From assembly GCA_018396955.1 (NCBI GenBank), contig JAGTQI010000003.1, positions 1 through 48,228 on the forward strand: a DNA stretch of 48,228 nt, read 5' to 3'. Source of the stretch: Candidatus Bathyarchaeota archaeon. Lineage in GTDB: Archaea; Thermoproteota; Bathyarchaeia; Bathyarchaeales; Bathycorpusculaceae. Shown piece after piece: positions 3,023 to 47,307 of this stretch. The position numbers and the translations under genes were made by a program. Within the stretch, counting starts at the first letter, position 1; the number at the start of each line of letters is the position of its first letter. The notes below the pieces were generated by a model. The model saw only the letters and a list, made by a program, of their open reading frames with translations. It had not been told where the DNA came from and did not search any database.

Positions 3023-4299
3023 TCAAGAACCGTTATGTTCTTTAAGCCTTTTAAGACAGAAGTAGACGACGCCTGCAGCTAGTGTTGCAGCGCCTAAAAT
3101 CCATGCTTGGGGCAAAACGAAAAGTGTAAAAACTAAAAGAGCCATGCATGATGTTGCCCCTAAAAATGGCACAATTTTTGGGCACATTCTATTATGCATT
3201 TTTAGCTTTAATGCTGAAACGTTAGCCAACGTATAACAGAAAAGCAGTGCGAAATTGCTTATAGCTACAACCCGTGTTATGTCCACGAAAAGAGCAAGCA
3301 GCGTCATGACGGCGCCTACAATCCATATGGAGAGATATGGAGTGTTATATTTTGGGTGGAGCCTGCTTAGGGCTTGGGGCAAATCTTTTCTCCTTGCCAT
3401 GGCATATGCCATGCGGGAAACTCCCAAAATGGCTGTTAGCAAAACGCTTACGGTTGCAATTAACCCGCCAACCGAAACCGTGTAGACCGCAAGGGTGTTT
3501 CCAGCGACGCCCATAGCTTCTGCAAGCGGAGAGTCTGAATGACCAAGCTTTGAGGCGCCTACAAGCCCAAGAGCCACAAAACCCACTAAAATGTAAATCA
3601 CCGTTGATATCGCCAAAGAAAGCATAATAGCCTTAGGCACATTTTTTCTGGCATCTTTAACTTCTTCCGCCACTACGGCCACTCTTGCAAACCCGCCATA
3701 AGCGAAGAAAATGTAAAATGCGCCGGACAAGACTCCCATTTGAAAGGGGTTGAAGGGGGTAAGATTTGAAGGATTCATGTGGAAGGCTCCATAAACTGCA
3801 AAGAATCCTAAAATGGAAGCTTAGCCGCCACAAGCACATTATTTAGGAGGGCTGATTGGCGCACCCCCAAAAAGTTGAGCGCTGTGAAGAGAAGCAGAAA
3901 AACAGCCGCCGCAACGTTTGGCGGTAATGCTGGAAAAAGAGCGCACAAATAACTTGCAAAGCCCAAAGAAACAGCTGCACCGACAAAAGTGTTAGATATA
4001 ACCCACATCCAACCAGCTAAGAAGCCTGCAAAGGGCGAAATCAGTTGATAAGAATACTCGTAAATGCTTCCCTCAATAGGCTTCCAAAGAGTTAATTCGG
4101 CAAAACTTAAAGCCGTAAGCGTAGATATGGCTGCTGCCAAAAGCATGGAAACGATTAAGGCTGGACCTGCAAAGCGAGCCGCTATGCCGGTCACAACGTA
4201 TATGCCAGCACCCACTATGGCACCTATGCTTATGGCGGTAGCGTCAAACAATCCTAAAGTTGGCTTAAGCTCTCCATGCTGGGAGCTGTTTTTAGCCAA
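3023..4299 (-). pseudogene. APC-family amino-acid permease broken by one frameshift
   Basis: Two adjoining minus-strand frames make up one amino acid-polyamine-organocation permease of about 425 residues. The N-terminal part (4299-3808) has the family's first helix (AISIGAIVGAGIYVV) and ends shortly after NNVLVAAK. The C-terminal part is open from about 3815 down to 3023, continuing as SILGFFAVYGAFHM and then the FFAYGGFARVAVVAEEVKDA helix typical of helix 6. Losing one base near 3810-3820 explains the break. The start is probably TTG at 4297-4299. Both halves are otherwise well preserved, so this is either a recent mutation or a sequencing error. Function, if intact, would be amino-acid uptake; the substrate is unknown. 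Confidence 0.85.
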
Positions 4300-13460: not shown

Positions 13461-14029
13461 TTAGCGCGGCGCTCGTAAAGGGCTACTTTCGATACCTTTT
13501 TCTCCCCGTATAACTTTTTCTACAAGCTCCGCAAGTTTAGCTTGCTCCCTTAAAACATCGAAATACGGGGCTGGCAATTCTCTTCTCATCGCCAAATAGG
13601 GACCCGTGAAGGCTATTATGGGCTTAAAGGTTTTTAAGGCTTCAACAACTTCCTCTTCGGATTTAACCGCTACTATTTTTGGCACGTTGGGCTTGGCGCC
13701 TAAAATTTTTCTGAAGCCTTCAACGAGGATTATATCGTTGTCTCGGCACTTTTCTACTATGCTTTCAAGGGAAAAATCGTTTGTGCTGCCTCTTTCTATG
13801 ATGGCTATTTCTTTTGATGAAATGCTAACCACAGTCTTGGCTCCAGCTTCGGCGAACCTCCAAGTGTCTTTGCCCTTTGCTCAATTGTGAAGTCCCTTTC
13901 TGGGATGTGTTTCACGGCTGCCACTTTGTAGCCTCGGCGGGTTAGCTCCCTCGTCAAGGCTTCTATCGTTGTTGTTTTTCCAGACTCTTTGCTTCCCAAG
14001 ACTGCTATAACTGTTGCTGTTGTTTTCAA
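13461..14029 (-). pseudogene. mobB: MobB (molybdopterin-guanine dinucleotide accessory GTPase), frameshifted
   Basis: The N-terminal frame from ATG 14029 has the P-loop GSKESGKTT, the switch-like AVKHIPERDFTI and then runs out of frame after EQ. The second minus-strand frame continues KDTWRFAEAGAKTVVS and then DNDIILVEGFRK, the standard MobB order. Restoring one base within the CAAAGGGC run near 13870-13880 would rejoin them as about 188 residues. MobB binds GTP and assists MobA in making bis-MGD for molybdenum or tungsten enzymes, such as the formylmethanofuran dehydrogenase encoded at 19930-24315. Both halves look preserved, so recent loss or a base-calling error is likely. The upstream regulator gene ends 3 bases before it. 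Confidence 0.82.
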
Positions 14030-14031
14030 TT

Positions 14032-14517
14032 TTACACCTTCTTGCTTTTCATCTCTTCATTAAAGATCTTCTTAAACGTGGCCTTTTCCATGTGAAGCTT
14101 TTCCGATAGATTTTTAACCCATCTTATGTAACTTCTAAAAATGTTCTGTAATATTTCTGCCTTTTCCCTGCCTGAAAGCTCTTTTTCTTCAGCCAAGAGA
14201 AGAGCAAACCATTTTCCCGCGTCTGAAAGTTTGTAGGCTTTAACCCAAACTATGCGTCCTTCATGTTGTGTTTTCTCCATGTCCTCTATTAGGATTCCAA
14301 GCTTTGTCAAAACTTTCAAGTTCTCAATTATCGTCTTGTTTGAGTAGGAGAGCTTCCTAACGAGGTCTTTCTGGTAAACCTTGTTTGAAATTCCAGTTTT
14401 AAGGAAGAATCTTAAAATGTCAAGGGAAGCCTTAGAACCAAAAATTGCACTTAATATGCGGTCCTTTTCTTCAGCTGGAAGGAAAACTACATAGGGATGT
14501 AGTGAACTCACCTGCAC
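14032..14517 (-). CDS. Winged-helix transcriptional regulator
   Basis: The 161-residue protein contains a winged helix-turn-helix at about residues 25-100: SLDILRFFLKTGI, YQKDLVRKLSYSNKTIIENLKVL (helix-turn-helix) and a wing before AYKLSDAGKWF. A helical C-terminal part probably dimerises. The start is GTG at 14515-14517 with GAGGAC a few bases upstream. It is transcribed away from the nucleotidyltransferase genes at 14602 and towards mobB, which begins 2 bases after it. It could control the shared 84-base promoter region, but no operator was identified. Confidence 0.75.
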   Translation of the reverse strand: MQVSSLHPYVVFLPAEEKDRILSAIFGSKASLDILRFFLKTGISNKVYQKDLVRKLSYSNKTIIENLKVLTKLGILIEDMEKTQHEGRIVWVKAYKLSDAGKWFALLLAEEKELSGREKAEILQNIFRSYIRWVKNLSEKLHMEKATFKKIFNEEMKSKKV

Positions 14518-14601: not shown

Positions 14602-15639
14602 GTGTCATTGACGGCTGCACCTAAAAATTGGCTTCCAATGGATGGAGACACGTTTGCAACTAGCGAAGGGTTCATTCTAAACGTTTTTGGATATGAGCAT
14701 CCAGAGAAGCGGGTCTTCGCTTTTCTGAAGTATATTCCATCAAGATTTAAAGAACTCTTTAATGTTCGCTTTTTGGGGAGAACATGGCGTTATGGGCGAA
14801 CCGAGCTTTTTAGGGCTGAAAAGCTTTACACGGCGAAAAACTACCAGACTTTCCTAGAAGTTTTTCGCGCACATTTTCCAGACTATGTTTACCATTGTCC
14901 ATTCAGAAGAAAGGATGTTATCAGCGCGCCCTGGGCAAGAATTAAGCGGGTTTACGTTCCAAGAGAGCGTCTTCAGAGGCTTTTGAGGGTAAAGAGGCTG
15001 GATAAACTGCAGAAAATGACTCTGGATTTTCTGGATTTAGTCTCTGGCGCGTCAAAAGTTGCCTTAGAAGATTTTGGTGTTCACGGCTCCGTAGCCTTAA
15101 ATATGCATTCCCAAAAGTCGGACATAGACATAGTTGTTTATGGCGGGAGAAACTTCCGCATAGTAGAAAATGCCATCCACAAGCTTGTCGAGGAGGGAAC
15201 CCTTAGTTATGTTTTTAATAATCGTTTGGACGCCGCGAGACGGTTTAGGGGGCGGTATCATGAAAGGATTTTCATGTATAATGCCGTCCGCAAACCTGAA
15301 GAAGTGACAACCAAGTATGGCAAATACTATTACACGCCAATAGCTCCGGTAAAGTTCCAATGTAAGGTTAAGGACGATAGTGAAGCCATGTTCCGTCCAG
15401 CCATATACAAAATTGAAGAGTACACATCGTTAAATCAGAATTCAAGACTTCCCAAAGAGATGGTTCCAAGCGCTGTTGTCTCCATGATTGGATGCTACAG
15501 AAACATAGCCAGGAACGGCCAGAAAATAGAGGTTTCTGGAGTGCTGGAACGCGTCGAAAAAGTGGATAGTGGCGAAACCTTCTACCAAGTTGTTGTTGGA
15601 ACCGCTGGAAGCGAGGAAGAGTACATTTGGCCTGTTTAA
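14602..15639 (+). CDS. Polymerase-beta-like nucleotidyltransferase, paralog 1
   Basis: The 345-residue protein has three visible parts. An N-terminal domain (about 1-120) begins with [16 protein letters not shown] nucleotidyltransferase core carries HGS (about 161-163) and, ten residues on, SDIDIVVYG with the metal-binding aspartates near 174 and 176. A C-terminal region holds [14 protein letters not shown] and a small beta-rich end ([16 protein letters not shown]). The GS...DxD pair is the signature of the DNA polymerase beta superfamily. A third carboxylate strand is not obvious. Two paralogs of the same architecture follow at once. The family is annotated only as predicted nucleotidyltransferases in archaea; substrate unknown. 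Its stop overlaps the start of the next gene. Confidence 0.8.
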
Positions 15640-16718
15640 GGCTTAGAGACCGCGACGCAATAATCACACGCGAAGGCTTAATCTTCCGCGTTTTCGGCTA
15701 CACACACCCGCCAGAAGGTTTTGTATGCGATGCTGAGTATGCGCCCTCCAATCTTTTCAAGTCAGCTAATCCAAAAGCCTATAGAACTGATGGAAAAAAC
15801 ACCTTTTACAAGTTTTACGAGGATGAGGGCTGGCGTTTTATAGAGGCAAACTACCCACAATACATGCTTCTATACAAGCCTATTGGCGGGAAAGTTGTAG
15901 GTGTCAGCCATTCGGATGTGGCAGGCATAAGAAAGCCGGAGGATGCCCTTAGAAGGCTTATTGAAAAAGAGCCGAAAGACGAGCTTATCAAGGCTCTTCA
16001 AAAAGTCCTGGAAGCAACTGTGATAAGTTCCGGCTTGTCCACCGGGGATTTTGGTGTTTTCGGCTCTCTTCTTCAAGGCTTTTATCATCCAAAATTCTCC
16101 GACATAGACATAATTGTTTATGGCAAGAGGAATCTGAAGCGGATACGCGGAGTTCTTAGGGAGCTTTACAATGATAAAGGTTCAAGGTTTTCTAACGAGT
16201 TTGATAACCACTCGCCCGTCATGGGGAAACCTTGGCGCTTCAAGAACATAAGCCCGGAAGAGTTCGTTTGGCACCAGAGGCGCAAGCTCATTTATGGAGT
16301 CTTCCATGACGAATCATTTGGAAGGGACATAAAAGTCGAGTTTGAACCCGTGAGAGACTGGAGTGAAATCAGCAACGAATACAGCCAAATTAAAAGGATA
16401 ACTAGAGAGGGATGGGTTAAGGCACTTTTACATGTAAAAGATGATTCGGAAGCGCTTTTTATGCCATCGATATACCATGTTGAGGCTGTAAAGATAGTTG
16501 AAGGCCCAAGAGTTGAAGACTTGAGGAAAATTGTTTCTTATCTCGAGGAGTTTAGAATGCAAGCGTGGAAAGGCGAAACAGTTTATGCTGAAGGAAACCT
16601 TGAAAGGGTTGAGTTGTGGAACGGCGGAGGCTTCCACCAAATAACATTAACCTATGGGCCACGCTACTACGAACAAGTCTTGAAGGTTGTAGAGCCTCAT
16701 CAAAATTTAGTGTTTTAG
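15627..16718 (+). CDS. Polymerase-beta-like nucleotidyltransferase, paralog 2
   Basis: This 363-residue protein repeats the architecture of paralog 1: [15 protein letters not shown] at the start, [22 protein letters not shown] with the paired aspartates in the centre, [13 protein letters not shown], then [15 protein letters not shown]. It also has KVEFEP between the core and the DDxEA motif, a possible third acidic catalytic residue that the other two copies lack. The TTG at 15627 overlaps the end of paralog 1 by 13 bases, so the two are translationally linked. Its 3' end overlaps the oppositely oriented third paralog by 12 bases. Function unknown; the preserved metal-binding residues suggest an active nucleotide-transfer enzyme. 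Confidence 0.78.
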
Positions 16719-17729
16719 AATCATGCAGTCTGTGGGCCGGTTTCCGAGAAGAAGCCTAAAATATTCACATCCACTTCTATTGTCTGTTACGTGTTCAAGT
16801 TTTCCCTGCGCCACAACAGTCTCGCCTTTCCTTGCTTGCTCGCAGAACCTTCCACGGAAGGACACAATCTCCCTTATCGGCTCGAGTTTCGGCCCCTCAA
16901 CAACCTTAACATCCCCAATCTTATACTTGCATGGCGTGAAAATAGCCTCAGCATCGTCAACAACAACAGCCTCAACCCTTGCATAGCCACAATTCTTATA
17001 GCGGACATCACCATACTTTTCACCTATTTCGCTGAAGTCTTTCACGAAACGGATAAAAAAGTTCCTATCCATAAACTTGCCCTGAAAACTTTTTCTGGAT
17101 TCTACTGTTACAAAGTCTTTAAAGCTCATGATGGTGTCTCTCGAACGGAACTCAAAAAGCTTCCGCAACTCGTCCAGGGAATAGGGCTTTAAGAGACTGG
17201 AGGGCTCCTCGAACAAGGATTTAATCGTAGAGTAAACTTTCCAGCAGTTTTCAGACCCATAGATAACTAAGTCAATATCCGAACCATGTGTGTGCAAACC
17301 AACCATAACAGATCCCGAAGCACCTATGGCTTTCCATGGGATGCGGGCTGAGAATTTAAGCAGAGAAGCCATTTCTAAGACTGCATTTTCCAAACTGTCT
17401 AGATTTTCGGCTTTTCGAAGCCTTTGGATCACCCTGGTTGGCGTGTAACGTTTTTTAACATGGTTTATTGGCACTTCGCATAATACTTCATCGAAAACTG
17501 GATCGTAAACTAAGTATTCTGGAAAATTCTTTTTCAACCATTCATAACGCTTGTGCAGGGAATAAACCTTCTTGAAGTGGCGACTTTTGCCTCGCCTCTC
17601 ACCCGCCTTGTCAGGGTAATATCTTATGAAGGCTATCACCTTGTTTGACGGGTGGATTAACCCCTTCACGTCGAATATTAAACCTAGCCTCGTTTCTATG
17701 AAGTCTCCTTCGCGGAATCCTTTTTCCAT
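16707..17729 (-). CDS. Polymerase-beta-like nucleotidyltransferase, paralog 3
   Basis: The third copy (about 340 residues) is on the opposite strand. It keeps TRLGLIFDVKGLIHP, the core GASGSVMVGLHTHGSDIDLVIYG, the VDDAEAIFTPCKY motif and the C-terminal ARKGETVVAQGKLEHV element. ATG 17729 is preferred to the TTG one codon upstream. Sequence identity with the other two is low outside the motifs, so the duplication is old. A convergent pair of paralogs with overlapping 3' ends is unlikely from a simple tandem duplication and suggests an inversion or selection to keep them together. Confidence 0.78.
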   Translation of the reverse strand: MEKGFREGDFIETRLGLIFDVKGLIHPSNKVIAFIRYYPDKAGERRGKSRHFKKVYSLHKRYEWLKKNFPEYLVYDPVFDEVLCEVPINHVKKRYTPTRVIQRLRKAENLDSLENAVLEMASLLKFSARIPWKAIGASGSVMVGLHTHGSDIDLVIYGSENCWKVYSTIKSLFEEPSSLLKPYSLDELRKLFEFRSRDTIMSFKDFVTVESRKSFQGKFMDRNFFIRFVKDFSEIGEKYGDVRYKNCGYARVEAVVVDDAEAIFTPCKYKIGDVKVVEGPKLEPIREIVSFRGRFCEQARKGETVVAQGKLEHVTDNRSGCEYFRLLLGNRPTDCMILKH

Positions 17730-17761
17730 CAAAAGTTAAAATGGCCGCCATGTATTTTTTA

Positions 17762-18715
17762 TTATTTTTGTCTCTTGAAAATGAGGCCTGTCTTGTAAAG
17801 TCCGGACGTCAATCCAACTCCGACTATTGTTGCCACAACGGTCATTAATACTCTTTCGATGGCTGAAACTGGAACCATGTACATGAATAGCGATGGGACA
17901 TCAGGCAGCCCCAATGGTTTGAGGAAGTAGTTTTCCACTACGCTCAGCGGGATGAAGATGTCTATTGTCCCTATGAATATTAGGTTTCCAAGCATGTGGT
18001 CAGCAATTATTCCACAATAGCTGGCCAGGAAGACTGATGATATGAAGGAAAATCGTCCTACCCCGAAAATTCCGTAAAGGACTAGCACTGCGGCTATAAT
18101 GTAAAATGGAAACGAAAGATAGTTTAATGGAACAGCTTCGCTTATATACGGCTTTGTAAACATGTAGCCGACAAAAAACAGAATCACGCCGGATAGTATA
18201 GAAGCTGGCTTAAACTGCCAACTCTCCTTTGGAACTCCAATTTCCTTAAATGAGTTTGCAGTCCAGCTTCGTGTGATCAGAATGGCAAACAAGCCTGCAA
18301 AGTGTAAGATTGGGTAGAATATGGCTTTTTGTCCAATCCATGTGGTATACCACCCAGCTATTAAGGCAGCAAGGATTACCGCGGACATGACCCATCCTTG
18401 AACCTTGCTATTTTTTGAGATTTTGTCCAGCGTTAGGAATCCGGCCACCATTGCGGAGATTGCTGGGCAGAAGGACGTTAAGATGCTGAAAGGGCTTCCA
18501 GCGGCGATTAAGCCGCCTATTAAAGCAGCTAGAAAGCCTAAATATGGGCCTATTATCATTCCGTAGAGGGGAGCGAAGGCGGCGTCAAATTTTATTTGGG
18601 CGTCTGGAACGCCAACTATGGGTATTCCGGGTATGAACTTGCAGATGATAAAGGAGAGGGCAGCGAAAATTGTCAGTAACGCCACGTTTTTTGCGGATAG
18701 TTCAATGTCGGCCAA
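17762..18715 (-). CDS. Multi-pass membrane protein resembling an ECF transporter substrate-binding component
   Basis: About 317 residues with eight or more hydrophobic helices. The N-terminal part (NVALLTIFAALSFIICKF, then FDAAFAPLYGMIIGPYLGFLAALIGGLI) resembles the substrate-specific S component of energy-coupling-factor vitamin transporters. The protein is longer than a usual S component (about 180-200), so a fused or duplicated form is possible. TTG 18715 is favoured because GGTGG lies about 6 bases upstream; the GTG at 18724 would overlap that site. No EcfA ATPase or EcfT gene is in the window, so it would rely on a shared energising module. Substrate unknown. Confidence 0.65.
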   Translation of the reverse strand: MADIELSAKNVALLTIFAALSFIICKFIPGIPIVGVPDAQIKFDAAFAPLYGMIIGPYLGFLAALIGGLIAAGSPFSILTSFCPAISAMVAGFLTLDKISKNSKVQGWVMSAVILAALIAGWYTTWIGQKAIFYPILHFAGLFAILITRSWTANSFKEIGVPKESWQFKPASILSGVILFFVGYMFTKPYISEAVPLNYLSFPFYIIAAVLVLYGIFGVGRFSFISSVFLASYCGIIADHMLGNLIFIGTIDIFIPLSVVENYFLKPLGLPDVPSLFMYMVPVSAIERVLMTVVATIVGVGLTSGLYKTGLIFKRQK

Positions 18716-18809
18716 GTGTCCCACCTGTGTATTTTTGGTAATTGCAGTGTAATTTTTTACACAACATTAATAAGCTTTTCCATGTGATCTAACTACAAAG
18801 GCTGTAAAG

Positions 18810-19769
18810 GTGCACGCTTTGAGGCCGATCATCGACAAAGCCACTCATGTTGCCCAGTGCCTAGAATTGGCCATTTTGTTGGAAGTTAGCGCCGACAAGC
18901 CTGGCAACGTCAATTTGGTTGTTGGTTTTGAGGGAACAAACCACATGCATTTTTTGGCTTCCGCCGTTGCTGCTGCCCCGCATTTTAGGTTGGCTGCTGA
19001 GCGGGGAATGGCCGTTTCGAGGGGCGAAATAAGCGTTGAAAATGTCGGCGTTGGTAGTCTCATCAGAGATTGTGTGGCTGATGTGAGTGCTTGGCAAAGT
19101 GGTGGAAATACATTGCTTGGAACAATTATACTTTTTACGCCTTTGGCTGTGGCGGCTGGTATGGCTCCCATGGAGAAGGAAGCTTTTGACATGTCTGTTT
19201 TAAGGCGTAATTTAAAAAGTGTCATTGAGGCAACAACGCCTGAAGACGCTGTTGCGGTTTACGAGGCTGTTAGGATTGCGAAGCCCAGCGGTTTGGGGAA
19301 GGCTCCAGACTTAGACGTTAATGATCCAAGCTCTGTGAAACGCATAGTCGAGGAGAAGATTTCGCTTAACCAAGTTTTTAAAATAGCTTCATCCTATGAC
19401 ATGGTTTGCTCAGAATGGGTTAACAATTACCCAGTAACCTTCGAATACGCTTATCCACTGTTGATGCAAAACCTCAAGGAAGATGGAGACTTAAACACAG
19501 CGATAATTCACACTTTCCTAGGGGTTTTGGCTAGGCATCCAGACACCTTCATTGCCAGAAAAGTTGGGCTAGAAAGGGCTTGTGAAGTCTCAGCCGTAGC
19601 CGGAGAAGTCTTGAAAAGCGGGGGACTCAGAACAGCCATCGGAAGGGAAAAACTCCGCCAATTTGACGTCATGCTTAGAAAGGAAAGCAACCTCCTCAAT
19701 CCTGGAACAACAGCAGACATTATTGCAGCTGCCCTAGCCTTGGCTGTGCTGGGCGGCTATAGACCATAA
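18810..19769 (+). CDS. CitG-like triphosphoribosyl-dephospho-CoA synthase family protein
   Basis: The 319-residue protein shows the CitG family signatures: EVSADKPGNVN near the N-terminus, HFLASAVAAAPHF, and GGNTLLGTIILFTPLAVA. In bacteria CitG makes the prosthetic-group precursor of citrate lyase from ATP and dephospho-CoA. No citrate lyase genes are seen here. Archaeal homologs are common in genomes that use methanopterin-type cofactors, and this one lies directly upstream of the fwd operon on the same strand. I therefore infer a role in a phosphoribosyl-transfer step linked to C1 cofactors rather than in citrate lyase. Start GTG 18810. Confidence 0.75.
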   Translation: MHALRPIIDKATHVAQCLELAILLEVSADKPGNVNLVVGFEGTNHMHFLASAVAAAPHFRLAAERGMAVSRGEISVENVGVGSLIRDCVADVSAWQSGGNTLLGTIILFTPLAVAAGMAPMEKEAFDMSVLRRNLKSVIEATTPEDAVAVYEAVRIAKPSGLGKAPDLDVNDPSSVKRIVEEKISLNQVFKIASSYDMVCSEWVNNYPVTFEYAYPLLMQNLKEDGDLNTAIIHTFLGVLARHPDTFIARKVGLERACEVSAVAGEVLKSGGLRTAIGREKLRQFDVMLRKESNLLNPGTTADIIAAALALAVLGGYRP

Positions 19770-19929: not shown

Positions 19930-20337
19930 ATGGAGGAAAAACCTAAGCTGAAGGTTACCTTGTTGACTGGGCGCACAATAGAGCAAGGTGTTGGAAAAGA
20001 GTGGGGAAAATCCTCCAAAGAATATGTGGAAAGCGTTTCAGTCTGTTATATGGACCCGGAAGACATGAAAAGGCTGGGCGTAAAAGATGGAACTAACATC
20101 CAAGTTTCAACGGCTTTCGGCTCTGTGGTGGTTAAAGCTGTCAAGTCTTTGAGGGCGCCGCACCCTGGCGTTGTGTTTATCCCATATGGTCCATGGGCAA
20201 ACGTTGTCGTTGACCCTGAAACTCACAGCATAGGTATGCCCTCCTTTAAAGGGATTCCAGCCACTGTAGAGCCAGCCCCGGACAAGCCGGTTCTAGGCTT
20301 GAAAGAGCTTCTTAAAACTGTTTTTAGGAAGGGTTAA
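19930..20337 (+). CDS. fwdD: Formylmethanofuran dehydrogenase subunit D
   Basis: The 135-residue protein is the molybdopterin-dinucleotide-binding beta-barrel subunit D. It opens with LKVTLLTGRTIEQGVGKEWGK, a family hallmark, followed by VKDGTNIQVSTAFGSVVVKA and PGVVFIPYGPWANVVV, which contact the bis-MGD cofactor in related molybdo/tungsto enzymes. With FwdB it makes the formate dehydrogenase-like half of the complex that reduces CO2 to formate and passes it to FwdA. It is the first gene of the run fwdD-fwdB-fwdA-fwdC-mch; fwdB starts 3 bases after its stop. Confidence 0.95.
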   Translation: MEEKPKLKVTLLTGRTIEQGVGKEWGKSSKEYVESVSVCYMDPEDMKRLGVKDGTNIQVSTAFGSVVVKAVKSLRAPHPGVVFIPYGPWANVVVDPETHSIGMPSFKGIPATVEPAPDKPVLGLKELLKTVFRKG

Positions 20338-20340
20338 TGG

Positions 20341-21795
20341 ATGCCTGTTGTTAAGGCTGTAACTTGTCCTGTTTGTGGAAGCCTATGCGACGATATAGAA
20401 CTGACTGTTGAAAATGGGCGTATAGTTAAGGTTAAGAATGGCTGTGCCATGTGTGAAGCTAAGTTCTTGGGCTACTGTGGCGAGCATCGTGTTTTAAAGC
20501 CTATGATTAGGAAGAACGGCGGACTCGTCAAGACAACCCTCAAAGAGGCTGTTAGAAGGGCTGCTGAAATCTTGGCTGAAGCCAACTATCCAGTGCTTTA
20601 TGGTTGGAGCAGCACAAGCTGCGAAGCCATAAGCGTCGGCATAGAACTAGCCGAAGAGGTTGGTGGAGTAATAGATAACACTTCCGTCGTTTGCCACGGT
20701 CCCTCAATTTTGAGCATCCAAAACGTGGGGATCCCATCATGCACTCTGGGACAAATTAGGCACAGGGCTGACCTCATTGTTTATTGGGGAAGCAACCCTT
20801 GGAGCGCCCACCCAAGGCATATAGAGCGTTACACAGCCTTCGCAGAAGGAAGATTCGAGAAAAGCGCTTGGAGAAGCTACGTGAACAAGGTTAAGGCTCT
20901 TGTTGGGCGGAAAAAACTTCAAAGCGCCATCAAAAGATTATTTGTAAAGAAACCTGCACCAGTTCCCCCACCCATTTCCGAGTATAAGCCCTACCCGTTC
21001 ATAACCAAAGAGGGAAGAAAACTCATAGTTATCGACGTTAGGAGAACAAAATCCGCTGAAATCGCAGATTACTTCGTGCAAGTTGAGCCCAACAAGGATT
21101 ATGAGCTCTTGCAAGCTTTTAGGATGTTGATCCGCGACCAAGAACTTGAAGTTGACAGGGTAGCCGGTGTTCCAGTTGAATATTTGGAGGAGGTTGCTGA
21201 CGTCATGGTCAGCTGCGACTTCGGCGCCTTATTCTTTGGGCTTGGCTTAACAATGAGTAGCGGCAAGCTACGAAACATTGATGCAGCCCTCTCGTTGGTG
21301 CGGGACCTAAACATGCGGACAAAGTTCATTATAATGCCGATGCGAGGACACTTCAACGTGACTGGCGCCAACATAGTTTTTACCTGGCAAACAGGCTACC
21401 CATATGCTGTGGACTTTTCCCTTGGTTATCCACGGTACAATCCAGGTGAAACATCAGTTGTCGACGTCTTACTACGGAAGGAGTCTGACGCCGCCATCAT
21501 AGTAGCTTCAGACCCTGTTTCAAGCTTCCCCCGAAAGGCAGCTGAGCACCTTGTGAAAAACCCCCTAATAGTTATCGACCCCCACATGAATGTGACGGCC
21601 CAAATGGCTGATGTGCTTATTCCGTCAGCTTTTGTTGGCATAGAAGCCTCTGGAACAGCCTATCGGATGGATCACGTGCCCATACCCCTAAAAAAGGTTG
21701 TCAACCCGCCAAAGGGCATACATCCAGACGAGGAGATTTTGAGGCGAATCCTAAAGGAAGTTAGGCGAATAAAAAAGAAGGAGGAGGCTGCCTAA
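20341..21795 (+). CDS. fwdB: Formylmethanofuran dehydrogenase subunit B (catalytic, Mo/W)
   Basis: A 484-residue molybdopterin oxidoreductase. An N-terminal [4Fe-4S] site is formed by CPVCGSLC and a cysteine in GCAMCEA. The metal-ligand cysteine is Cys118 in DNTSVVCHGPS, the position that is Cys in FwdB and selenocysteine in FwuB; here the codon is TGC, so it is the Cys form. Cofactor-binding segments such as VYWGSNPWSAHPRH and MRGHFNVTGAN follow. A charged insertion near residues 185-215 is unusual to my eye. The enzyme reduces CO2 to formate or works in reverse. Whether molybdenum or tungsten is used cannot be told. Confidence 0.96.
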   Translation: MPVVKAVTCPVCGSLCDDIELTVENGRIVKVKNGCAMCEAKFLGYCGEHRVLKPMIRKNGGLVKTTLKEAVRRAAEILAEANYPVLYGWSSTSCEAISVGIELAEEVGGVIDNTSVVCHGPSILSIQNVGIPSCTLGQIRHRADLIVYWGSNPWSAHPRHIERYTAFAEGRFEKSAWRSYVNKVKALVGRKKLQSAIKRLFVKKPAPVPPPISEYKPYPFITKEGRKLIVIDVRRTKSAEIADYFVQVEPNKDYELLQAFRMLIRDQELEVDRVAGVPVEYLEEVADVMVSCDFGALFFGLGLTMSSGKLRNIDAALSLVRDLNMRTKFIIMPMRGHFNVTGANIVFTWQTGYPYAVDFSLGYPRYNPGETSVVDVLLRKESDAAIIVASDPVSSFPRKAAEHLVKNPLIVIDPHMNVTAQMADVLIPSAFVGIEASGTAYRMDHVPIPLKKVVNPPKGIHPDEEILRRILKEVRRIKKKEEAA

Positions 21796-21796
21796 A

Positions 21797-23488
21797 ATGG
21801 AGCTTCTAATAAAAAATGGGCTTGTCTACGACCCAATTAATGGCGTTAACGAAGAAAAAATGGACATAGCCGTAAAAGATGGCAAAATAGTTGAGAAAGT
21901 CAACGAGCGAAGAGCCAAGAAGATAGATGCCTCTGGAATGATTGTCATGCCAGGCGGGATTGACATCCACAGCCACATAGCCGGCGGAAAAGTGAACTCT
22001 GGTAGACTTTTGCGTCCAGAAGATCATTTTAAGGATTTTGAACGCAAAACAGCCGTAACAAGGTCTGGTGTAGGCTATTCTATTCCGTCCACCTTTACAA
22101 CGGGCTACCGCTACGCAAGGATGGGCTGGACAACAGTCATGGACCCAGCCATGCCGCCGTTAGAGGCGAAGCACACGCATGAGGAATTAAGCGACACGCC
22201 CATAATTGATAAGGCCAGCTACCCACTTCTCGGCGACTGGTGGTTTGTCCTCGAATACTTACGAGACGGCAAAATAGAAGAATGCGCACGACATGTGGCA
22301 TGGATGATTAAGGCGACCAAAGGTTACGCGATAAAGCTTGTCAACCCCGGCGGGCTCGAGGCTTGGGGCTTTGGGCGCAACGTAAAAAACATAGACGACC
22401 CAGTCCCATACTTTGGAATTACGCCCCGCGAGATTATCCGCGGACTATGCAGAGTTAATAAGCTTTTAAACTTACCCCACACTATCCACGTGCACACCAA
22501 CAACCTCGGCAAGCCTGGCAATTATGTTACAGCCCTAGAAACAATGAAATGTGTGGAGGATTTAGCCGAAGACGGAAAGCCGGTGATTCACATAACCCAC
22601 TGCCAGTTCAGCGCCTTCAAAGGCGACGACTGGAGAACCTTCGAATCCGGAGCGGAAGAAATAGCCAACTACGTTAATGCGCATTCCCACGTGACAATGG
22701 ACATGGGGCAAGTAATATTCACAGACACCACAACAATGACGGCTGATGGGCCATTCCAGTACATACTTTACACTTTAAGCGGAAATAAGTGGGTGAACCA
22801 CGACGTCGAAACAGAAACAAGCGCCGGAATAGTGCCATTCCACTATAGAAGAAGAAGCTACGTCCACGCAACCCAGTGGTCCATTGGACTGGAGCTAGCC
22901 CTGCTAATAAAGGACCCGTGGAAAATCTTGATGACCACTGACCATCCGAACGGGGGGCCATTTATTGCTTACCCAAGAATTGTGGCTTGGCTCATGAGCA
23001 GAAAAGCAAGGGAAGCCACCCTTAAAAAGATTAATTCAAAAGCTAGAAGCAGAAGCCTCCTCCCAACAATAGACCGTGAATTAAGCTTTTATGAAATAGC
23101 CATAGTTACAAGGGCTGGACAAGCCAAAGCCTTAGGGCTTAAAAACAAGGGACACTTAGGCATAGGCGCAGACGCGGACATAGCCATATACAAATTTAAC
23201 TCGGAAACCATGGACCCCTCAAAGAAGTATAAGGCTGTAAGGCGGGCTTTCAAAAGGGCAGCCTACACCATCAAAAGCGGACAAGTAGTGGTTAAGGATG
23301 GCGAAGTCCTAAAACATGTTGACGGTGCGACCATGTGGCTGGACGTAAAAACAAGCGAAGAGGCAAAAATAACAGAGGAAATGAAAAGACGGTTTAAAGA
23401 TTACTGGACCGTTGAGTTTGAAAATTATCCCGTAAGTGAGGATTATTTGGCGATTTCCCAACCCACAACCGTGAAGGCTGATGTATGA
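21797..23488 (+). CDS. fwdA: Formylmethanofuran dehydrogenase subunit A (amidohydrolase)
   Basis: A 563-residue member of the amidohydrolase/dihydroorotase superfamily with a dinuclear zinc site. The family motif appears as GGIDIHSHIAGGKVNSGR (about residues 54-71), metal-binding histidines recur in HTIHVHTNN and ITHCQFSAFKG, and TTDHPNGGPF carries the catalytic aspartate region. FwdA joins formate, delivered by an internal tunnel from FwdB, to methanofuran to give formylmethanofuran. It begins one base after the fwdB stop with GGAGG upstream, and its TGA overlaps the ATG of fwdC (ATGA), so the operon is tightly coupled. Confidence 0.96.
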   Translation: MELLIKNGLVYDPINGVNEEKMDIAVKDGKIVEKVNERRAKKIDASGMIVMPGGIDIHSHIAGGKVNSGRLLRPEDHFKDFERKTAVTRSGVGYSIPSTFTTGYRYARMGWTTVMDPAMPPLEAKHTHEELSDTPIIDKASYPLLGDWWFVLEYLRDGKIEECARHVAWMIKATKGYAIKLVNPGGLEAWGFGRNVKNIDDPVPYFGITPREIIRGLCRVNKLLNLPHTIHVHTNNLGKPGNYVTALETMKCVEDLAEDGKPVIHITHCQFSAFKGDDWRTFESGAEEIANYVNAHSHVTMDMGQVIFTDTTTMTADGPFQYILYTLSGNKWVNHDVETETSAGIVPFHYRRRSYVHATQWSIGLELALLIKDPWKILMTTDHPNGGPFIAYPRIVAWLMSRKAREATLKKINSKARSRSLLPTIDRELSFYEIAIVTRAGQAKALGLKNKGHLGIGADADIAIYKFNSETMDPSKKYKAVRRAFKRAAYTIKSGQVVVKDGEVLKHVDGATMWLDVKTSEEAKITEEMKRRFKDYWTVEFENYPVSEDYLAISQPTTVKADV

Positions 23489-24315
23489 TGTTGGTAAACC
23501 TATACCCACTAAAAGAGTTTAAACTGCCAGTAGTGGCTGAATGCATAAACCCGGACATTTTCCAAGGGAAAAAGCCAAAAGAAATTGAAGGGCTGGAGGT
23601 TTGGGAGGGGAACAAGCAGAAAAGGCTTGGAGAACTCTTCAAAGTTGAAGTGGCAAAGGAAGAAAGCGTCTCCGAAGCCGCTGTAATAACAATTCATGGC
23701 GATGTCAGCCATGTAAAGCGGATAGGCGTTGGCATGAAAGGCGGCGAAATAGTTGTTAAAGGCGATGCTGGCATGCACTTGGGCGAAGAGATGTCTGGCG
23801 GAAAAATAACAGTTTATGGCAACGTTTTAGGCTGGGCTGGCTCCATGATGAAGGGTGGGACGATAGAAATTCACGGGAATGCTGGCGATTATTTGGGCGC
23901 ACCGTATCGTGGAAGCACGGAAGGAATGAAAGGCGGAAAAATAATAGTGCATGGAAACGTTGGTAACGAAGTCGGAGCTCACATGAAGAAAGGCCTAATA
24001 AAAATTTATGGAAATGCCGGACAGTTTGTAGGCTTTAGGATGCATGGTGGCACAATTTACGTACAGAAAGACTGCGGTGGAAGGGGCGGGGCATGCATGA
24101 CGGATGGGACGATTGTTGTCGGCGGCTTTTTAGAGTCCGTCCTTCCCACATTCACAATTGAGGGTTTAAGGAAGAGGGTTAAAATTGAAGAAGGCGAAGT
24201 TGTGGAAGCGCCTTTCTATCTATTCCTTGGAGACTTAACTGAAAACGGTCGCGGAAGGCTCTTTGTCGCAAAAGAGCCTAACCCCCACCTAGGTTACTAT
24301 GAAAAGTTTCTGTAA
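23485..24315 (+). CDS. fwdC: Formylmethanofuran dehydrogenase subunit C
   Basis: The 276-residue protein carries a series of G-x-x-x-G-x-x-M/H-x-x-G beta-helix repeats between residues about 75 and 205 (for example VGMKGGEIVVKGDAG, MSGGKITVYGNVLG, MKGGKIIVHGNVGN, MHGGTIYVQ). This right-handed beta-helix is shared with the C-terminal domain of glutamate synthase. It braces the FwdA-FwdB core in the known complex. The N-terminus has two consecutive ATG codons at 23485 and 23488; either could be used. No polyferredoxin subunit (FwdF/FwdG) follows; mch does. Confidence 0.94.
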   Translation: MMLVNLYPLKEFKLPVVAECINPDIFQGKKPKEIEGLEVWEGNKQKRLGELFKVEVAKEESVSEAAVITIHGDVSHVKRIGVGMKGGEIVVKGDAGMHLGEEMSGGKITVYGNVLGWAGSMMKGGTIEIHGNAGDYLGAPYRGSTEGMKGGKIIVHGNVGNEVGAHMKKGLIKIYGNAGQFVGFRMHGGTIYVQKDCGGRGGACMTDGTIVVGGFLESVLPTFTIEGLRKRVKIEEGEVVEAPFYLFLGDLTENGRGRLFVAKEPNPHLGYYEKFL

Positions 24316-24329
24316 AAGGGGGATGAGCC

Positions 24330-25292
24330 GTGAATGGTGGATTAAGTGTAAACCGCTTGGCATGGAAACTGCTAGAAAAGCTTCGTGGAAACTCCGAATT
24401 CTACGGCGTAAAAGTTCAAAGAGGGGAGTGCGGCGCCACAGTGGTGGATGCTGGAATAAAGGCGAGGGGTGGCTTCCAAGCCGGCAAGATTATAACGGAA
24501 ATCTGTATGGGCGGATGTGGAAAAGCCAAAATAGGCTTTAGACATTACGGCAAATTTGAGCTACCAACAATATTTGTCTATACAGACCATCCAGCCATAG
24601 CCACTTTGGGCTCCCAGTTCGCAGGATGGAACATTAAAGAGGGCGATTATTTCGCCATAGGCTCTGGACCCGCAAGAGCCCTAGCCCAAAAACCTAAAGA
24701 AATCTATGAAAAGATAGGATATAAGGACGAGTTTGACAAAGCTATAGTGGTCTTGGAAACCGATAAAGCCCCGCCGGAAAAGTTGATGAAAAGGCTGGCT
24801 GAAGACTGCCACGTCCAATGCGAAAACTTGGCATTAATATTAACCCCCACAGCCAGCCTTGCCGGGGCAACACAAGTAGCCGGTAGAATAGTTGAAACGG
24901 GAATTCACAAACTTACAATGTTGGGCTTCAACCCAAAAGCTATTCTTTATGCTTGGGGATGCGCCCCCATACCGCCAACCCACCCAAAATTTGTAGAGGC
25001 TATGGCCAGAACCAACGACGCCATCCTATACGGAGGCACAACCCATTACATAGTTGACTACGAAAAGGAAGATGAACTCGCCAGAATAGTGGAGAAAGCT
25101 CCATCAAAAGCATCAAAGGACTACGGCAAACCCTTCCTAGAAATCTTTAAAGCCGCAAACTACAATTTCTACAAAATAGACCCAAACATATTCGCGCCAG
25201 CAAAAATAACAATAAACAATGTAAGAACCGGAAAAACCTTCACAGCTGGAGAAATCAACCCAAAAATATTAATGGAAGCCTTAATTTCATAA
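24330..25292 (+). CDS. mch: Methenyltetrahydromethanopterin cyclohydrolase
   Basis: The 320-residue protein is a clear Mch: VNRLAWKLLEKL at the N-terminus, ECGATVVDAGIKARGGFQAG, EICMGGCGKAKIG, CENLALILTPTASLAGATQVAGR and the late GGTTHYIV segment. It interconverts 5-formyl-H4MPT and 5,10-methenyl-H4MPT, two steps after Fwd (Ftr lies between and is not in the window). The GTG at 24330 is chosen because GGGGGAT lies about 7 bases upstream. It sits 14 bases after fwdC, so the CO2-activating and cyclohydrolase steps are probably co-transcribed. Confidence 0.96.
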   Translation: MNGGLSVNRLAWKLLEKLRGNSEFYGVKVQRGECGATVVDAGIKARGGFQAGKIITEICMGGCGKAKIGFRHYGKFELPTIFVYTDHPAIATLGSQFAGWNIKEGDYFAIGSGPARALAQKPKEIYEKIGYKDEFDKAIVVLETDKAPPEKLMKRLAEDCHVQCENLALILTPTASLAGATQVAGRIVETGIHKLTMLGFNPKAILYAWGCAPIPPTHPKFVEAMARTNDAILYGGTTHYIVDYEKEDELARIVEKAPSKASKDYGKPFLEIFKAANYNFYKIDPNIFAPAKITINNVRTGKTFTAGEINPKILMEALIS

Positions 25293-28261: not shown

Positions 28262-29158
28262 TTGTTAGAGCGGATAAAATTGAGAATTGGCATAGTCACC
28301 CGAAACCCCGATGCTTATAGTTCAGCTCAGCTTCGCGAGGCACTGTCTAGACGTGGAATTCCCTATGCTTGCTTTAGCTTTCCCTGGCTTGTTGCACGTG
28401 TGGGGTTTAAGCCCTATTTAAACGTACTCGGCATCGATGTCTTAAAGGATTTAAACGCTTTGATAATCCGTCCGATTGGACGCGGTTCACTCGAAGAAAT
28501 TGTTTTCCGCATGGATGTTCTTTACCGGCTTGAGCGTTTGGGCTTTTATGTTGTTAACCCGCCAGAGGCTATTGAACACTGCGTTGACAAGTATGATTTA
28601 CTGGCGATACTGGAGGATGCTGGCATACCAGTGCCGCGAACCGCTGTTACGGAGGACGCTGATGAAGCTTTGAAGGCTTTTCATGAGCTTGGCGGAGACG
28701 TTGTTCTCAAGCCCATTTTCGGCTCCAGGGGCATAGGCTCAACCCATTTGACAGATCCGGAGGTGGCGTACACCGCCTTTAAAGCTGTAATGTTCTATCA
28801 TGGCGTAATTTACATCCAAGAGTTTGTGCCTCATGGATGTTCCGACATCAGAGCCTTTATTATAGGCGACCGGGTGGTTGCAGCCATGCGGCGGGTTGCC
28901 ACAAGCTGGAAAACCAACTACAGTCAAGGAGCCCGGCCAGAACCAATAAAGTTAGACGCTCAACTGGAAGATTTAGCCATAAAATCCGCCCAGCTAATAA
29001 AGTGCAAAATTGCCGGCGTGGACATCCTGGAAAGCCCAAGAGGTCCCTTAATAGTTGAGGTTAACAGCCAACCCGGATGGAGAGGCCTACAATCCGTCAC
29101 TCGGGTCAACATTGCAGATGAAATAGTCAATTTTGTGCTTTTGGAACTGAAAAAATAG
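28262..29158 (+). CDS. RimK-type ATP-grasp ligase, probably MptN/CofF-like
   Basis: A 298-residue ATP-grasp ligase. An N-terminal preATP domain (about 1-100) precedes the grasp: VDKYDLLAILEDAGIPVPRT, VVLKPIFGSRGIG (the phosphate-binding glycine-rich loop), IQEFVPHG, and the metal-binding VDILES...LIVEVNSQPGW. Archaeal relatives add glutamate to tetrahydromethanopterin (MptN) or to coenzyme F420 (CofF). Since the window encodes methanopterin-dependent C1 enzymes, the MptN activity is the first guess, but LysX- or RimK-like roles are possible. The start is likely TTG 28262; an ATG at 28255 is in another frame. Confidence 0.82.
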   Translation: MLERIKLRIGIVTRNPDAYSSAQLREALSRRGIPYACFSFPWLVARVGFKPYLNVLGIDVLKDLNALIIRPIGRGSLEEIVFRMDVLYRLERLGFYVVNPPEAIEHCVDKYDLLAILEDAGIPVPRTAVTEDADEALKAFHELGGDVVLKPIFGSRGIGSTHLTDPEVAYTAFKAVMFYHGVIYIQEFVPHGCSDIRAFIIGDRVVAAMRRVATSWKTNYSQGARPEPIKLDAQLEDLAIKSAQLIKCKIAGVDILESPRGPLIVEVNSQPGWRGLQSVTRVNIADEIVNFVLLELKK

Positions 29159-44496: not shown

Positions 44497-45846
44497 CTAC
44501 TGTTTCGAGATTATATGAATGTTGTCTACGAGTATAGGCGGTGTATAAGCGCGGATCTCTGTTGGGCGGGTTTCGCATCCAATTTCGATTATGTCTTTTA
44601 ACGCTTGGAAGGCGTTGCCGGAAATCATAGTTTCTCCCAGAGCATGTTTTATTTGCCCTTTCTCTATATAGCTTGCTTGTTTGGCTATTCCTGAGAATTC
44701 TCCGCTGTCTGGTCGAACGTTTCCGCTGAAGCGGCGAACAATTATTCCTTTATCAACTTCTGCTATGAGCTCCTCAAGCTTCTTTTTTCCAGCTTTAACC
44801 ACGAAGTTTGAGGTTGCCACTGTTGGGAGCATGTTGTAGCTTTCTCTATAGGCGTTTCCAGTTGATTTTTTCCCTTCCTTATTTGCCGTGTAGGAGTTGT
44901 ATATGAAGCCTTCAAGTTTGCCGTTTATTATTATTGGTGTTTTTTGTCTTGGTGCACCTTCAAAATCGAAGTTTAGGGAGCCTATTCCTTTAGGCATTAA
45001 GCCATCATCAACAACTGTAAGCTCCGGGGATGCAACTTTTTCGCCGACTTTTCCAGCCCATAAGCTTCTTCCCCTCTGCACGTTGTCGGCGTTCACGCTG
45101 CTGATAACTGGATAAAACAATATGGAGGAGGCTGGGTCTGAGTCCAGAATGACTTTTCCGGTGAAGGATTCTATTGCCTTTGGATGAAGTGAGGATAAGG
45201 CTTTCTCAGCGGAAGTTTTCCCAATTTTTTCCGGTGAAAACTCCCTAAGCATTGTTGAGACGTCATATTCGTATGCCATACTTGATGTTTCGCCGCGTTC
45301 CTTTGCCACGCAGACTAAATATCCCTCTATGCGGGTTGTTTTTTCTTGAGCTTCAACCCCATGAGAGTTTGCAATTGCTATCTCGTTTAGGATTGCCGAG
45401 AACTTTCCATCGTCAATGTCCACACGTTTGTCATATCCTTTCGCTGCGTCATATGCGTCAATGACGAGGTTTAACATTTCGTCTCCGCTTATGCTGGCAA
45501 TTTCCGGATCGAATATACCTTCCGGAGTTTTTGGAAACTCATCTTTGGCTGGAAGCGAAACCCATTCTGGGTTTGGCACAGAAACTTTTGCTAGGCTTAT
45601 GGCAGCCTTGCAGGTGTTCTTTATGCTTTCTCTTGAGAGTTTTGATGCAAAGGCGAAGCCAAGCTTCTTATCTTTTATTACGCGTATGCCTATGCCGCTT
45701 TGGGTTTTGAAACGTTCGTTTTGGATTTCAGCCCTTTCAAGGACAACTTCCACTATCTGCAGGTTTTGAACGAAAGCTTCAGCCTCATCCGTTCCAAGCT
45801 TCTGGCATGTATTGACGGCTAAGCTTGCAAAATCTAGGAGGCTCAC
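44497..45846 (-). CDS. tldE: TldE/PmbA-family protease partner
   Basis: About 449 residues of the TldD/PmbA family: RFKTQSGIGIRVIKDKKLGFAFASKL early, SVNADNVQRGRSLWAGKVGEKV in the centre and YNSYTANKEGKKSTGNAYR towards the end. TldE lacks the HExxxH zinc motif, as expected, and pairs with TldD in a heterodimeric metalloprotease that trims unfolded or modified peptides such as microcin precursors. The GTG at 45844-45846 is used: it overlaps the tldD TGA (GTGA) with GGGGGGTGC just upstream. Confidence 0.92.
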   Translation of the reverse strand: MSLLDFASLAVNTCQKLGTDEAEAFVQNLQIVEVVLERAEIQNERFKTQSGIGIRVIKDKKLGFAFASKLSRESIKNTCKAAISLAKVSVPNPEWVSLPAKDEFPKTPEGIFDPEIASISGDEMLNLVIDAYDAAKGYDKRVDIDDGKFSAILNEIAIANSHGVEAQEKTTRIEGYLVCVAKERGETSSMAYEYDVSTMLREFSPEKIGKTSAEKALSSLHPKAIESFTGKVILDSDPASSILFYPVISSVNADNVQRGRSLWAGKVGEKVASPELTVVDDGLMPKGIGSLNFDFEGAPRQKTPIIINGKLEGFIYNSYTANKEGKKSTGNAYRESYNMLPTVATSNFVVKAGKKKLEELIAEVDKGIIVRRFSGNVRPDSGEFSGIAKQASYIEKGQIKHALGETMISGNAFQALKDIIEIGCETRPTEIRAYTPPILVDNIHIISKQ

Positions 45847-47219
45847 TTTGCACCCCCCATTAGAACCTTTGTTCTTAGGCTTGGACCACCTAGGCCAACA
45901 TAATTTACCTGTTCCTTTCCACATAAGCCAGTGCGCATTGCAAAATCTTTGCCCACCGCATCCACGTTTTTTAGGACTTCGAAGGCGTTTCCGCTAATTG
46001 TAACGCCGCGTAAAGATTCAGCGAATTCGCCCTTCTCTATTTTTACAGCTTCTTGTGTTCCAAACATGAATTCTCCGTTGAAGTCTGCTTGCCCGGCAAG
46101 TCCACCCTTTAAGAAGAAGCCCTCTTTTATGTCTTCAGCGAGCTCTTCAAGCGTGTAGTCGCCAGCCTCAATATACGTGTTCCTCATTCTTATAATTGGG
46201 TCGTATTCGAAGGTCCATGCACGGGCGTTTCCGGTGGGGCTGACGCCGAAGTGCTGGGCTGTTTCACGGGAATGTAGAAAACTTTTGCAGATGCCCTTCT
46301 CAATGATTATGGTTTTTTGTGTTGGAACACCTTCATCATCATATTTCATTGTTCCAAAACCGTTTGGGAATACTCCATCATCAACTAAGGTTACCTTCTC
46401 AGAGGCAACCTTCTCTCCTATCTTGTTGGCTAGAAAGCTTCCGCCGAAAACAAGGTCTGCCTCCGCACAGTGTCCAACAGCCTCGTGGGCTAATAACCCA
46501 ACAATGCGGTTTTCAAGGATTACTTGATGGTATCCGGCTGGCGCCATTTTTGCTGAAACAAGTTTACTTGCCCTCTCAGCAGCTGTTAAACCAGCATTCA
46601 TTAGCGGCGTTTTTTCCAAAACCTCAAGACCGGATTGTTCACCAATGCTTTCGTAGGCGGAGGCGATGTTTCCCTTTTCTCTGGCTACAACCATGACGCT
46701 GCCGAAGCATCGCACAATATGCTGATGGATTTCAGAGCCCTCTGAGCTTAGGAAGGCTAGGTTGTCGTCAACTATGTTGAAGGTTACGGTGTCGGAAACT
46801 ATGATTTTTGAGAAGCCCCTGACGGCTTTGTCAACGTCTATTACTAGGCTGACGAGTTCCTCTTTATCCGACTTTTCGGGGTCTTTCTTCATAGGAGTTT
46901 CATATCTGCCCACCTGCGGTTTAAGGCTTACAAGTTTCACAAAGCGTTTCTTTTTAGGCTTTGAAGACTTGGCAAGGGAAGTAGCACTCCTTAACATTTT
47001 ATCAATTTTTTCTTTTCCAAGAGTTGTTGAGGAGGCAAAACCCCAACTTCCATCTACTAGAACTCTTGCACATGCACCCTCCACGACTCCACTGTTAAGC
47101 GTCTCGATTTTACCATCTTTAACGGAAATGCTGAAGGTTTGCCTACTGTGGTATCGCAGTTCCACATAGCCCTCTGGACGCTTTTGGAGAATTCCCTTCA
47201 AAACTTCCACAGTCACCAT
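45843..47219 (-). CDS. tldD: TldD metalloprotease
   Basis: The 458-residue catalytic partner of TldE. It carries LLAHEAVGHCAEADLVFGG near residue 245, the HExxxH zinc motif of the family, and LVDDGVFPNGFGTMKYDDEG after it. RAWTFEYDPIIRMRNTYIEAGD and FFLKGGLAGQADF are also conserved. ATG 47219 is preceded by GGTG and is chosen over an in-frame start 15 bases upstream. TldD/TldE form a barrel that degrades unstructured peptides. It forms an operon with tldE, with overlapping stop and start. Confidence 0.94.
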   Translation of the reverse strand: MVTVEVLKGILQKRPEGYVELRYHSRQTFSISVKDGKIETLNSGVVEGACARVLVDGSWGFASSTTLGKEKIDKMLRSATSLAKSSKPKKKRFVKLVSLKPQVGRYETPMKKDPEKSDKEELVSLVIDVDKAVRGFSKIIVSDTVTFNIVDDNLAFLSSEGSEIHQHIVRCFGSVMVVAREKGNIASAYESIGEQSGLEVLEKTPLMNAGLTAAERASKLVSAKMAPAGYHQVILENRIVGLLAHEAVGHCAEADLVFGGSFLANKIGEKVASEKVTLVDDGVFPNGFGTMKYDDEGVPTQKTIIIEKGICKSFLHSRETAQHFGVSPTGNARAWTFEYDPIIRMRNTYIEAGDYTLEELAEDIKEGFFLKGGLAGQADFNGEFMFGTQEAVKIEKGEFAESLRGVTISGNAFEVLKNVDAVGKDFAMRTGLCGKEQVNYVGLGGPSLRTKVLMGGAK

Positions 47220-47307
47220 TTTCACCAACAGCATTGTTATAGGCTTTAGAATAAAAGATTTGGCATTGGAACTTGTTGATTATTCTTTTTGATTATTCTT
47301 TGTTTTC

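Follow-up and report, generated by a model that had tools for sequence, protein, structure and literature searches.

Nucleotidyltransferase paralogs next to CitG-like and one-carbon genes in Bathyarchaeia: candidates for late steps of H4MPT-type coenzyme assembly

A family of nucleotidyltransferases (NTs), represented by three diverged paralogs (A, B, and C) in one locus of a Candidatus Bathyarchaeota archaeon, adjoins genes of enzymes using tetrahydromethanopterin (H4MPT) and co-occurs almost constantly with CitG-like triphosphoribosyl transferases; it is therefore proposed to contain candidates for the missing late steps of H4MPT synthesis. The locus lies in a window (the whole stretch of DNA analysed) of 48,228 nucleotides from contig JAGTQI010000003.1. 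The assignment of the family to the H4MPT-type coenzyme pathway is probable. That A, B, and C help to assemble this coenzyme at a late stage or to remodel it, together with a CitG-like partner and by a mechanism in which CitG acts first and the NT follows, has about an even chance of being correct, and the exact step, in which the NT would form the hydroxyglutaryl phosphodiester, is suggested by analogy and falls a little short of that. The Thermoproteota NT family itself is uncharacterised. Archaeal COG1665 (“predicted nucleotidyltransferase”) is presumably the same protein type; we know of no function described for it, and the term is absent from the open-licence papers searched. In an inventory from 2011, about seven methanopterin enzymes were still unknown (PMC3087415). 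Among open-licence papers, none was found that links CitG with methanopterin.

The preliminary description of this DNA claimed three diverged paralogs and a winged-helix gene at one locus, and these open reading frames, with the paralogs at full length, were confirmed. Paralog A (14602..15639, + strand, 345 aa; stops are counted in the coordinates of all three paralogs; alternative ATG start at 14638) contains an NT core with GS..SDID and Asn at the position of the third catalytic acid. Paralog B (15627..16718, + strand, 363 aa) combines the NT core with an SSB-like OB fold and bears the acidic strand KVEFEP; paralog C (16707..17732, − strand, 341 aa) has Arg at the third-acid position. Both overlaps reported previously were found, i.e., A and B overlap head-to-tail by 13 bp, provided that B starts at the TTG at 15627, and B and C converge with ends overlapping by 12 bp. 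The gene of the winged-helix regulator (14032..14517, − strand), weakly Lrs14/Sta1-like, indeed reads away from A, and it is found again beside A in relatives. The neighbouring gene of MobB (molybdopterin guanine dinucleotide synthesis; 13461..14029, − strand) consists of two ORFs in this contig (123 and 74 aa) and of a single ORF of about 175–182 aa in most relatives; the split may be either a frameshift or an assembly error. Elsewhere in the window, one amino-acid permease is apparently broken into two adjacent ORFs (3023–4299, − strand), and an ORF pair at 44497–47234 (− strand) resembles TldD/PmbA proteins, which follow NT loci in other families.

On the other side of the locus, 29 bp upstream of C and on the same strand, lies the gene of a folate-family-like (FolT-like) ECF transporter S component (17762..18724, − strand; TIGR04518 E = 1.5e-7, under the curated cut-off). 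Behind this gene, C faces a CitG-FwdDBAC-Mch run on the opposite strand. The run is headed by a gene of a CitG-like triphosphoribosyl transferase (18810..19769, + strand; PF01874 E = 1.7e-69), which is a full-length CitG, followed by the formylmethanofuran dehydrogenase genes FwdD, FwdB, FwdA, and FwdC (19930..24315, + strand), whose Pfam domain types match and whose subunit names were assigned from the order of Pfam domains, and by methenyl-H4MPT cyclohydrolase Mch (24330..25292, + strand; PF02289 E = 1.4e-125). Further on, a RimK-type ligase (28262..29158, + strand) is nearest to MptN (tetrahydromethanopterin:alpha-L-glutamate ligase), with 258 bits against a curated cut-off of 350.

The three paralogs are homologous over their length and are the sole members of the family in the window’s genome: a single-sequence search with B returned C (33 %, E = 7e-36), A (E = 2e-15), and nothing else. 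Their Pfam matches to PF01909 are weak (E = 3e-4 for A, 6e-7 for B, and 9e-4 for C) and no other superfamily was matched; the same model was matched by 17 of 19 diverse family members. The domain plan consists of an N-terminal domain, a Pol-beta NT core, and the SSB-like OB fold. The likeness to the Pol-beta-like NT superfamily (PF01909 / PF18765) lies in the GS motif, DxD, and the putative NT core of the AlphaFold models, whereas the added N-terminal domain and C-terminal OB fold, as well as the third acid missing in three of four clades, set the family apart. The structure prediction suggested earlier gave confident models of B and C (mean pLDDT 93.9 each), but in Foldseek the NT core matched NT enzymes only weakly (E ~1e-2), and no homologs with solved structures were found by sequence search; the putative NT assignment is carried by sequence motifs. 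The small C-terminal beta element described previously is present; however, it does not stand alone but belongs, according to the models, to the OB fold, and this part of the models matches SSB-type OB folds (Foldseek probability 0.9–1.0). Candidates of another kind were tried and rejected. Against the MntA model of the MntA/HEPN toxin–antitoxin system, whose cut-off is 60 bits, A scored 12.5, and B and C gave no match; no HEPN or effector partner was present among Pfam matches of the scanned neighbours; PADLOC matches to anti-phage systems were only weak; and, concerning a virus origin, PHROG gave no match below 0.1, and viral contigs yielded no relative.

A tree of 184 members (FastTree, midpoint rooting) resolved four clades, A (36 members), B (36), C (64), and D (48), with local supports of 1.0 for A and B, 0.855 for C, and 0.945 for D. 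The GS...SDID core, proposed from three sequences to be shared, is family-wide, as GS and both Asp residues of DxD are invariant in 184/184 members of all four clades; the DDxEAxFxP region is largely conserved, with the final P in 183/184. The third-acid position differs. The acidic strand attributed to copy 2 only is indeed exclusive to it and is general to its clade, E-F-E-P being invariant in B (36/36), whereas the position is occupied by N in 34/36 members of clade A, by R/K in 64/64 of clade C, and by H in 39/48 of clade D. The canonical third carboxylate on the following core strand is absent in A, C, and D, and the textbook triad exists in B only. Because the residue differs clade by clade, the paralogs are not simple duplicates, and this pattern, together with the keeping of A, B, and C side by side, supports the earlier suggestion that the diverged copies have separate roles. 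In the OB region, a D-x-x-E/D motif is conserved (D259/E262 in C; columns 334/337 of the alignment) and might replace the third acid.

With B as a query, relatives were found in 52 of 61 related genomes. The co-occurrence of A, B, and C in the same arrangement (A and B in tandem, C converging on B) is kept across the window’s Bathyarchaeia family, and the A-B junction is near-identical in almost all loci listed; the opposite case, in which copies would be scattered and their neighbourhood not kept, was not seen. With C as a query, the family was found in 141 of 300 Thermoproteota genomes, and with a profile of C and D in 152. C and D occur together across distant Thermoproteota families, often adjacent, and in most lineages without B; the window’s family is devoid of D. 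A and B occur mostly in the window’s order, with few members outside (families f26 and f55, and B in f11). C and D look like an old, ancestral pair, and A and B look younger. A heteromer would be compatible with how tightly A and B are joined and with the pairing of C and D seen in other lineages. In one clade B gene from the window’s order (L106:7640-7642), the conserved WHQ.RK region is interrupted by one in-frame TAG (codon 213 of that stretch), which may reflect a pseudogene, an error, or read-through.

The distribution of the NT profile follows that of CitG. Both were found in 133 of the 300 Thermoproteota genomes, NT only in 19, CitG only in 2, and neither in 146 (Fisher p = 4e-61, uncorrected for relatedness). 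A count by hand of GTDB families gives 36 with both genes and 3 (f8, f21, and f15) with a single one of the two. Diverged NTs were found by the profile in 9 of 10 genomes first scored as CitG-only and in 0 of 6 genomes without CitG. At a looser CitG threshold, 3 of the 19 NT-only genomes become positive for both, and several of the remaining ones are incomplete. CitG is also present in M. jannaschii and M. acetivorans. For NT and RFAP synthase in the same 300 genomes, the numbers are 112 (both), 40 (NT only), 4 (RFAP synthase only), and 144 (neither). About half of the 300 genomes lack both NT and CitG, and nearly all of these also lack RFAP synthase. The pattern of RFAP synthase is less strict because several Bathyarchaeia, including the window’s genome, show none: RFAP synthase at E <= 1e-15, MptA, and the DHPS-like protein were not found in several Bathyarchaeia, among them the window’s 91 % complete genome. 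These Bathyarchaeia do encode Mch. Apparently, they use H4MPT but do not make its front half, although absence cannot be proved from a 91 % complete genome; the ECF importer next to C fits such use.

The neighbourhood of NT genes points in the same direction. Loci of other families contain CitG, RFAP synthase, the DHPS-like TIGR00284, MptA, MptD, MptE, and DUF447, and further neighbours are an AfpA/DmrX-like flavoprotein, an MptN-like ligase, Ftr (in the count, a Pfam-confirmed protein separate from Mch), Fwd, the methanofuran genes MfnB, MfnE, and MfnF, and HisA-like orf17. Genes of H4MPT or methanofuran were present within 5 kb in 39 of 74 loci outside the window’s family, loci that are not fully independent of one another, and were spread over 23 of the 29 other families. 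In the control, pathway genes were present in 5 of 40 stretches of 16 kb, hand-picked at fixed positions in large contigs and some of them from the window’s family. In locus L134, for example, MptE, the DHPS-like gene, MptA, and MptD are followed by C-D; pathway genes also adjoin C or D in L136, L114, and L151, and MfnB/E/F lie beside D in L146, L149, and L160-L162. CitG adjoins the NT in many families. In family f30 (by our reading, Sulfolobales), CitG has a diverged NT as its immediate neighbour, and their operon also includes DUF1464 and what seems to be a metallophosphatase; the carrier of this family may be a coenzyme other than H4MPT, which counts against the proposal, as do five families (f22, f23, f27, f38, and f42) in which C and D are kept and pathway genes within 5 kb are absent. 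A protein that combines a second Pol-beta NT domain with a kinase-like (APH/RIO) region was seen in L144:8958-10604 and in related loci of f23, f27, and f38; in 13 loci its gene adjoins clade D, and a TldD/PmbA gene comes next. As the NT genes are clustered and co-inherited with known genes of H4MPT biosynthesis, and given their surroundings (CitG, Fwd, Mch, ECF-S, and H4MPT/methanofuran genes), coenzyme biosynthesis is favoured over tRNA, RNA 3′ ends, and proteins, the targets considered initially.

The terminal part of H4MPT is a ribose-5-phosphate in alpha linkage, which forms an ester with 2-hydroxyglutarate. From ATP, CitG produces a ribosyl triphosphate, likewise alpha-linked, and adenine is set free; CitX and MdcG, which are NT-type enzymes, move the phosphoribosyl unit onto a hydroxyl with the release of pyrophosphate. 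From the family, the co-occurrence, the neighbourhood, and the residue pattern, we infer a substrate, a step, and a division of labour as follows. The coenzyme precursor would first receive, on its ribitol hydroxyl, a triphosphoribosyl group that the CitG-like enzyme takes from ATP; adenine would be set free and an alpha-ribosyl-5-triphosphate formed. The hydroxyl of 2-hydroxyglutarate would then attack the alpha phosphate in the NT-catalysed step, pyrophosphate would leave, and the phosphodiester of H4MPT would remain. This would be the chemistry of CitG/CitX (MdcB/MdcG) of citrate lyase and malonate decarboxylase, on a small-molecule acceptor. C, with D elsewhere, would be the old enzyme; A and B, later copies that have stayed beside it, may have a different substrate. 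In the window’s lineage, without recognisable early pathway genes, the NT set may act on an imported pterin. The likeness to CitX/MdcG with CitG/MdcB lies in the genomic pairing of an NT-type enzyme with a triphosphoribosyl transferase of the CitG family; the context of archaeal NTs, in contrast, is that of C1 coenzymes and not of acyl carrier proteins. Pfam models of CitX/MdcG gave no match at E <= 1 for A, B, and C or at E <= 0.1 for 19 members of C and D, and this absence of similarity is counted against the scheme. So are the two to four paralogs, more than one step requires, the OB fold, which could mean nucleic acid binding, and the third catalytic acid missing in A, C, and D.

Bacterial clusters offer a comparison. 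M. extorquens, a methylotroph, has H4MPT without the phosphate and hydroxyglutarate (PMC8141765). In the bacterial mch-orf5-orf7-fae-orf17 cluster, the position of orf7 is taken by a CitG-like gene, with mch, fae, and RFAP synthase as neighbours, and the dephospho-H4MPT cluster on an Azospirillum plasmid contains mch, a RimK ligase, CitG, fae, a HisA-like gene, and RFAP synthase and is devoid of an NT, matching the coenzyme without phosphate and hydroxyglutarate (PMC8141765). The presence of CitG and absence of an NT are as predicted by a scheme in which CitG would provide the ribose and the NT the phosphodiester. No NT genes were found in plasmid records having CitG matches. C-like genes among plasmid records come from Streptomyces only (L174 and L175), where the full-length NT of this family shares its operon with an APH-like kinase, a histidine phosphatase, and an unknown protein of 384 aa, which weighs neither for nor against the coenzyme idea. 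On a haloarchaeal plasmid (L173:7989-9433), CitG is directly followed by DUF447; haloarchaea are thought to use folate.

The same co-occurrence and neighbourhood would also be expected if the family acted at another step of the same pathway, e.g., by activating a side-chain acid or sugar with a nucleotide (compare CofC, which does so with phospholactate for F420) or by modifying a ribosyl-phosphate intermediate. The several paralogs suggest several substrates, and DUF1464 with the apparent metallophosphatase of family f30 would suit such a role; the partnership with CitG favours the phosphodiester step, and the alternative is considered doubtful. It is unlikely that the proteins are RNA- or DNA-directed NTs, acting in tailing or repair and guided by the SSB-like OB fold. 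In favour of this, the fold has high Foldseek probabilities, and poly(A) polymerases and CCA enzymes are matched weakly; however, whole-model E-values to RNA enzymes are ~1e-2 at best, and the phylogenetic pattern and neighbourhood track the coenzyme pathway. The restriction of the third acid to B, the nearly invariant A-B junction, and the adjacent C could indicate that B is the sole catalyst, forming a heteromer in the window’s family with A, C, and, elsewhere, D being inactive or regulatory. Against this, GS and both Asp are invariant in every member, and in most lineages C and D are present but B is not, so that C or D must function independently of B; this reading is quite improbable. Similarly improbable is the proposal that CitG and the NT build a prosthetic group resembling phosphoribosyl-dephospho-CoA and fix it to a carrier protein: a CitG with an NT-fold enzyme is the known pair of citrate lyase and malonate decarboxylase, and the archaeal CitG is full-length, but none of the genes next to the NT and CitG was recognised as coding for citrate lyase, malonate decarboxylase, or an acyl carrier, and H4MPT/methanofuran genes are found there instead. 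A toxin–antitoxin (MntA type) or anti-phage CD-NTase system, to which the NT fold, the winged-helix neighbour, and CD-NTases among the weak fold matches of B might point, is contradicted by steady inheritance across families and the conserved metabolic context and is extremely improbable.

The late-assembly reading can be extended, tentatively and with chances clearly below even, to a model in which CitG and the NTs are the two missing enzymes building the distal half of H4MPT, alpha-ribosyl-5-phosphate linked to 2-hydroxyglutarate, by chemistry borrowed from the citrate-lyase prosthetic group, and in which, in Bathyarchaeia whose early pathway has been lost, the three paralogs and the FolT-like importer form a module for salvage or remodelling of pterin coenzymes. 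Methanogens and many other archaea, as well as methylotrophs, have H4MPT as a central one-carbon carrier, and the pair of CitG and an NT with a predicted reaction makes a part of the methanopterin enzyme gap directly testable. If the proposal is true, it would account for the presence of CitG, known from citrate lyase, in archaea and in C1 clusters of methylotrophs, and it would suggest how Bathyarchaeia without recognisable early genes get a coenzyme that they use.
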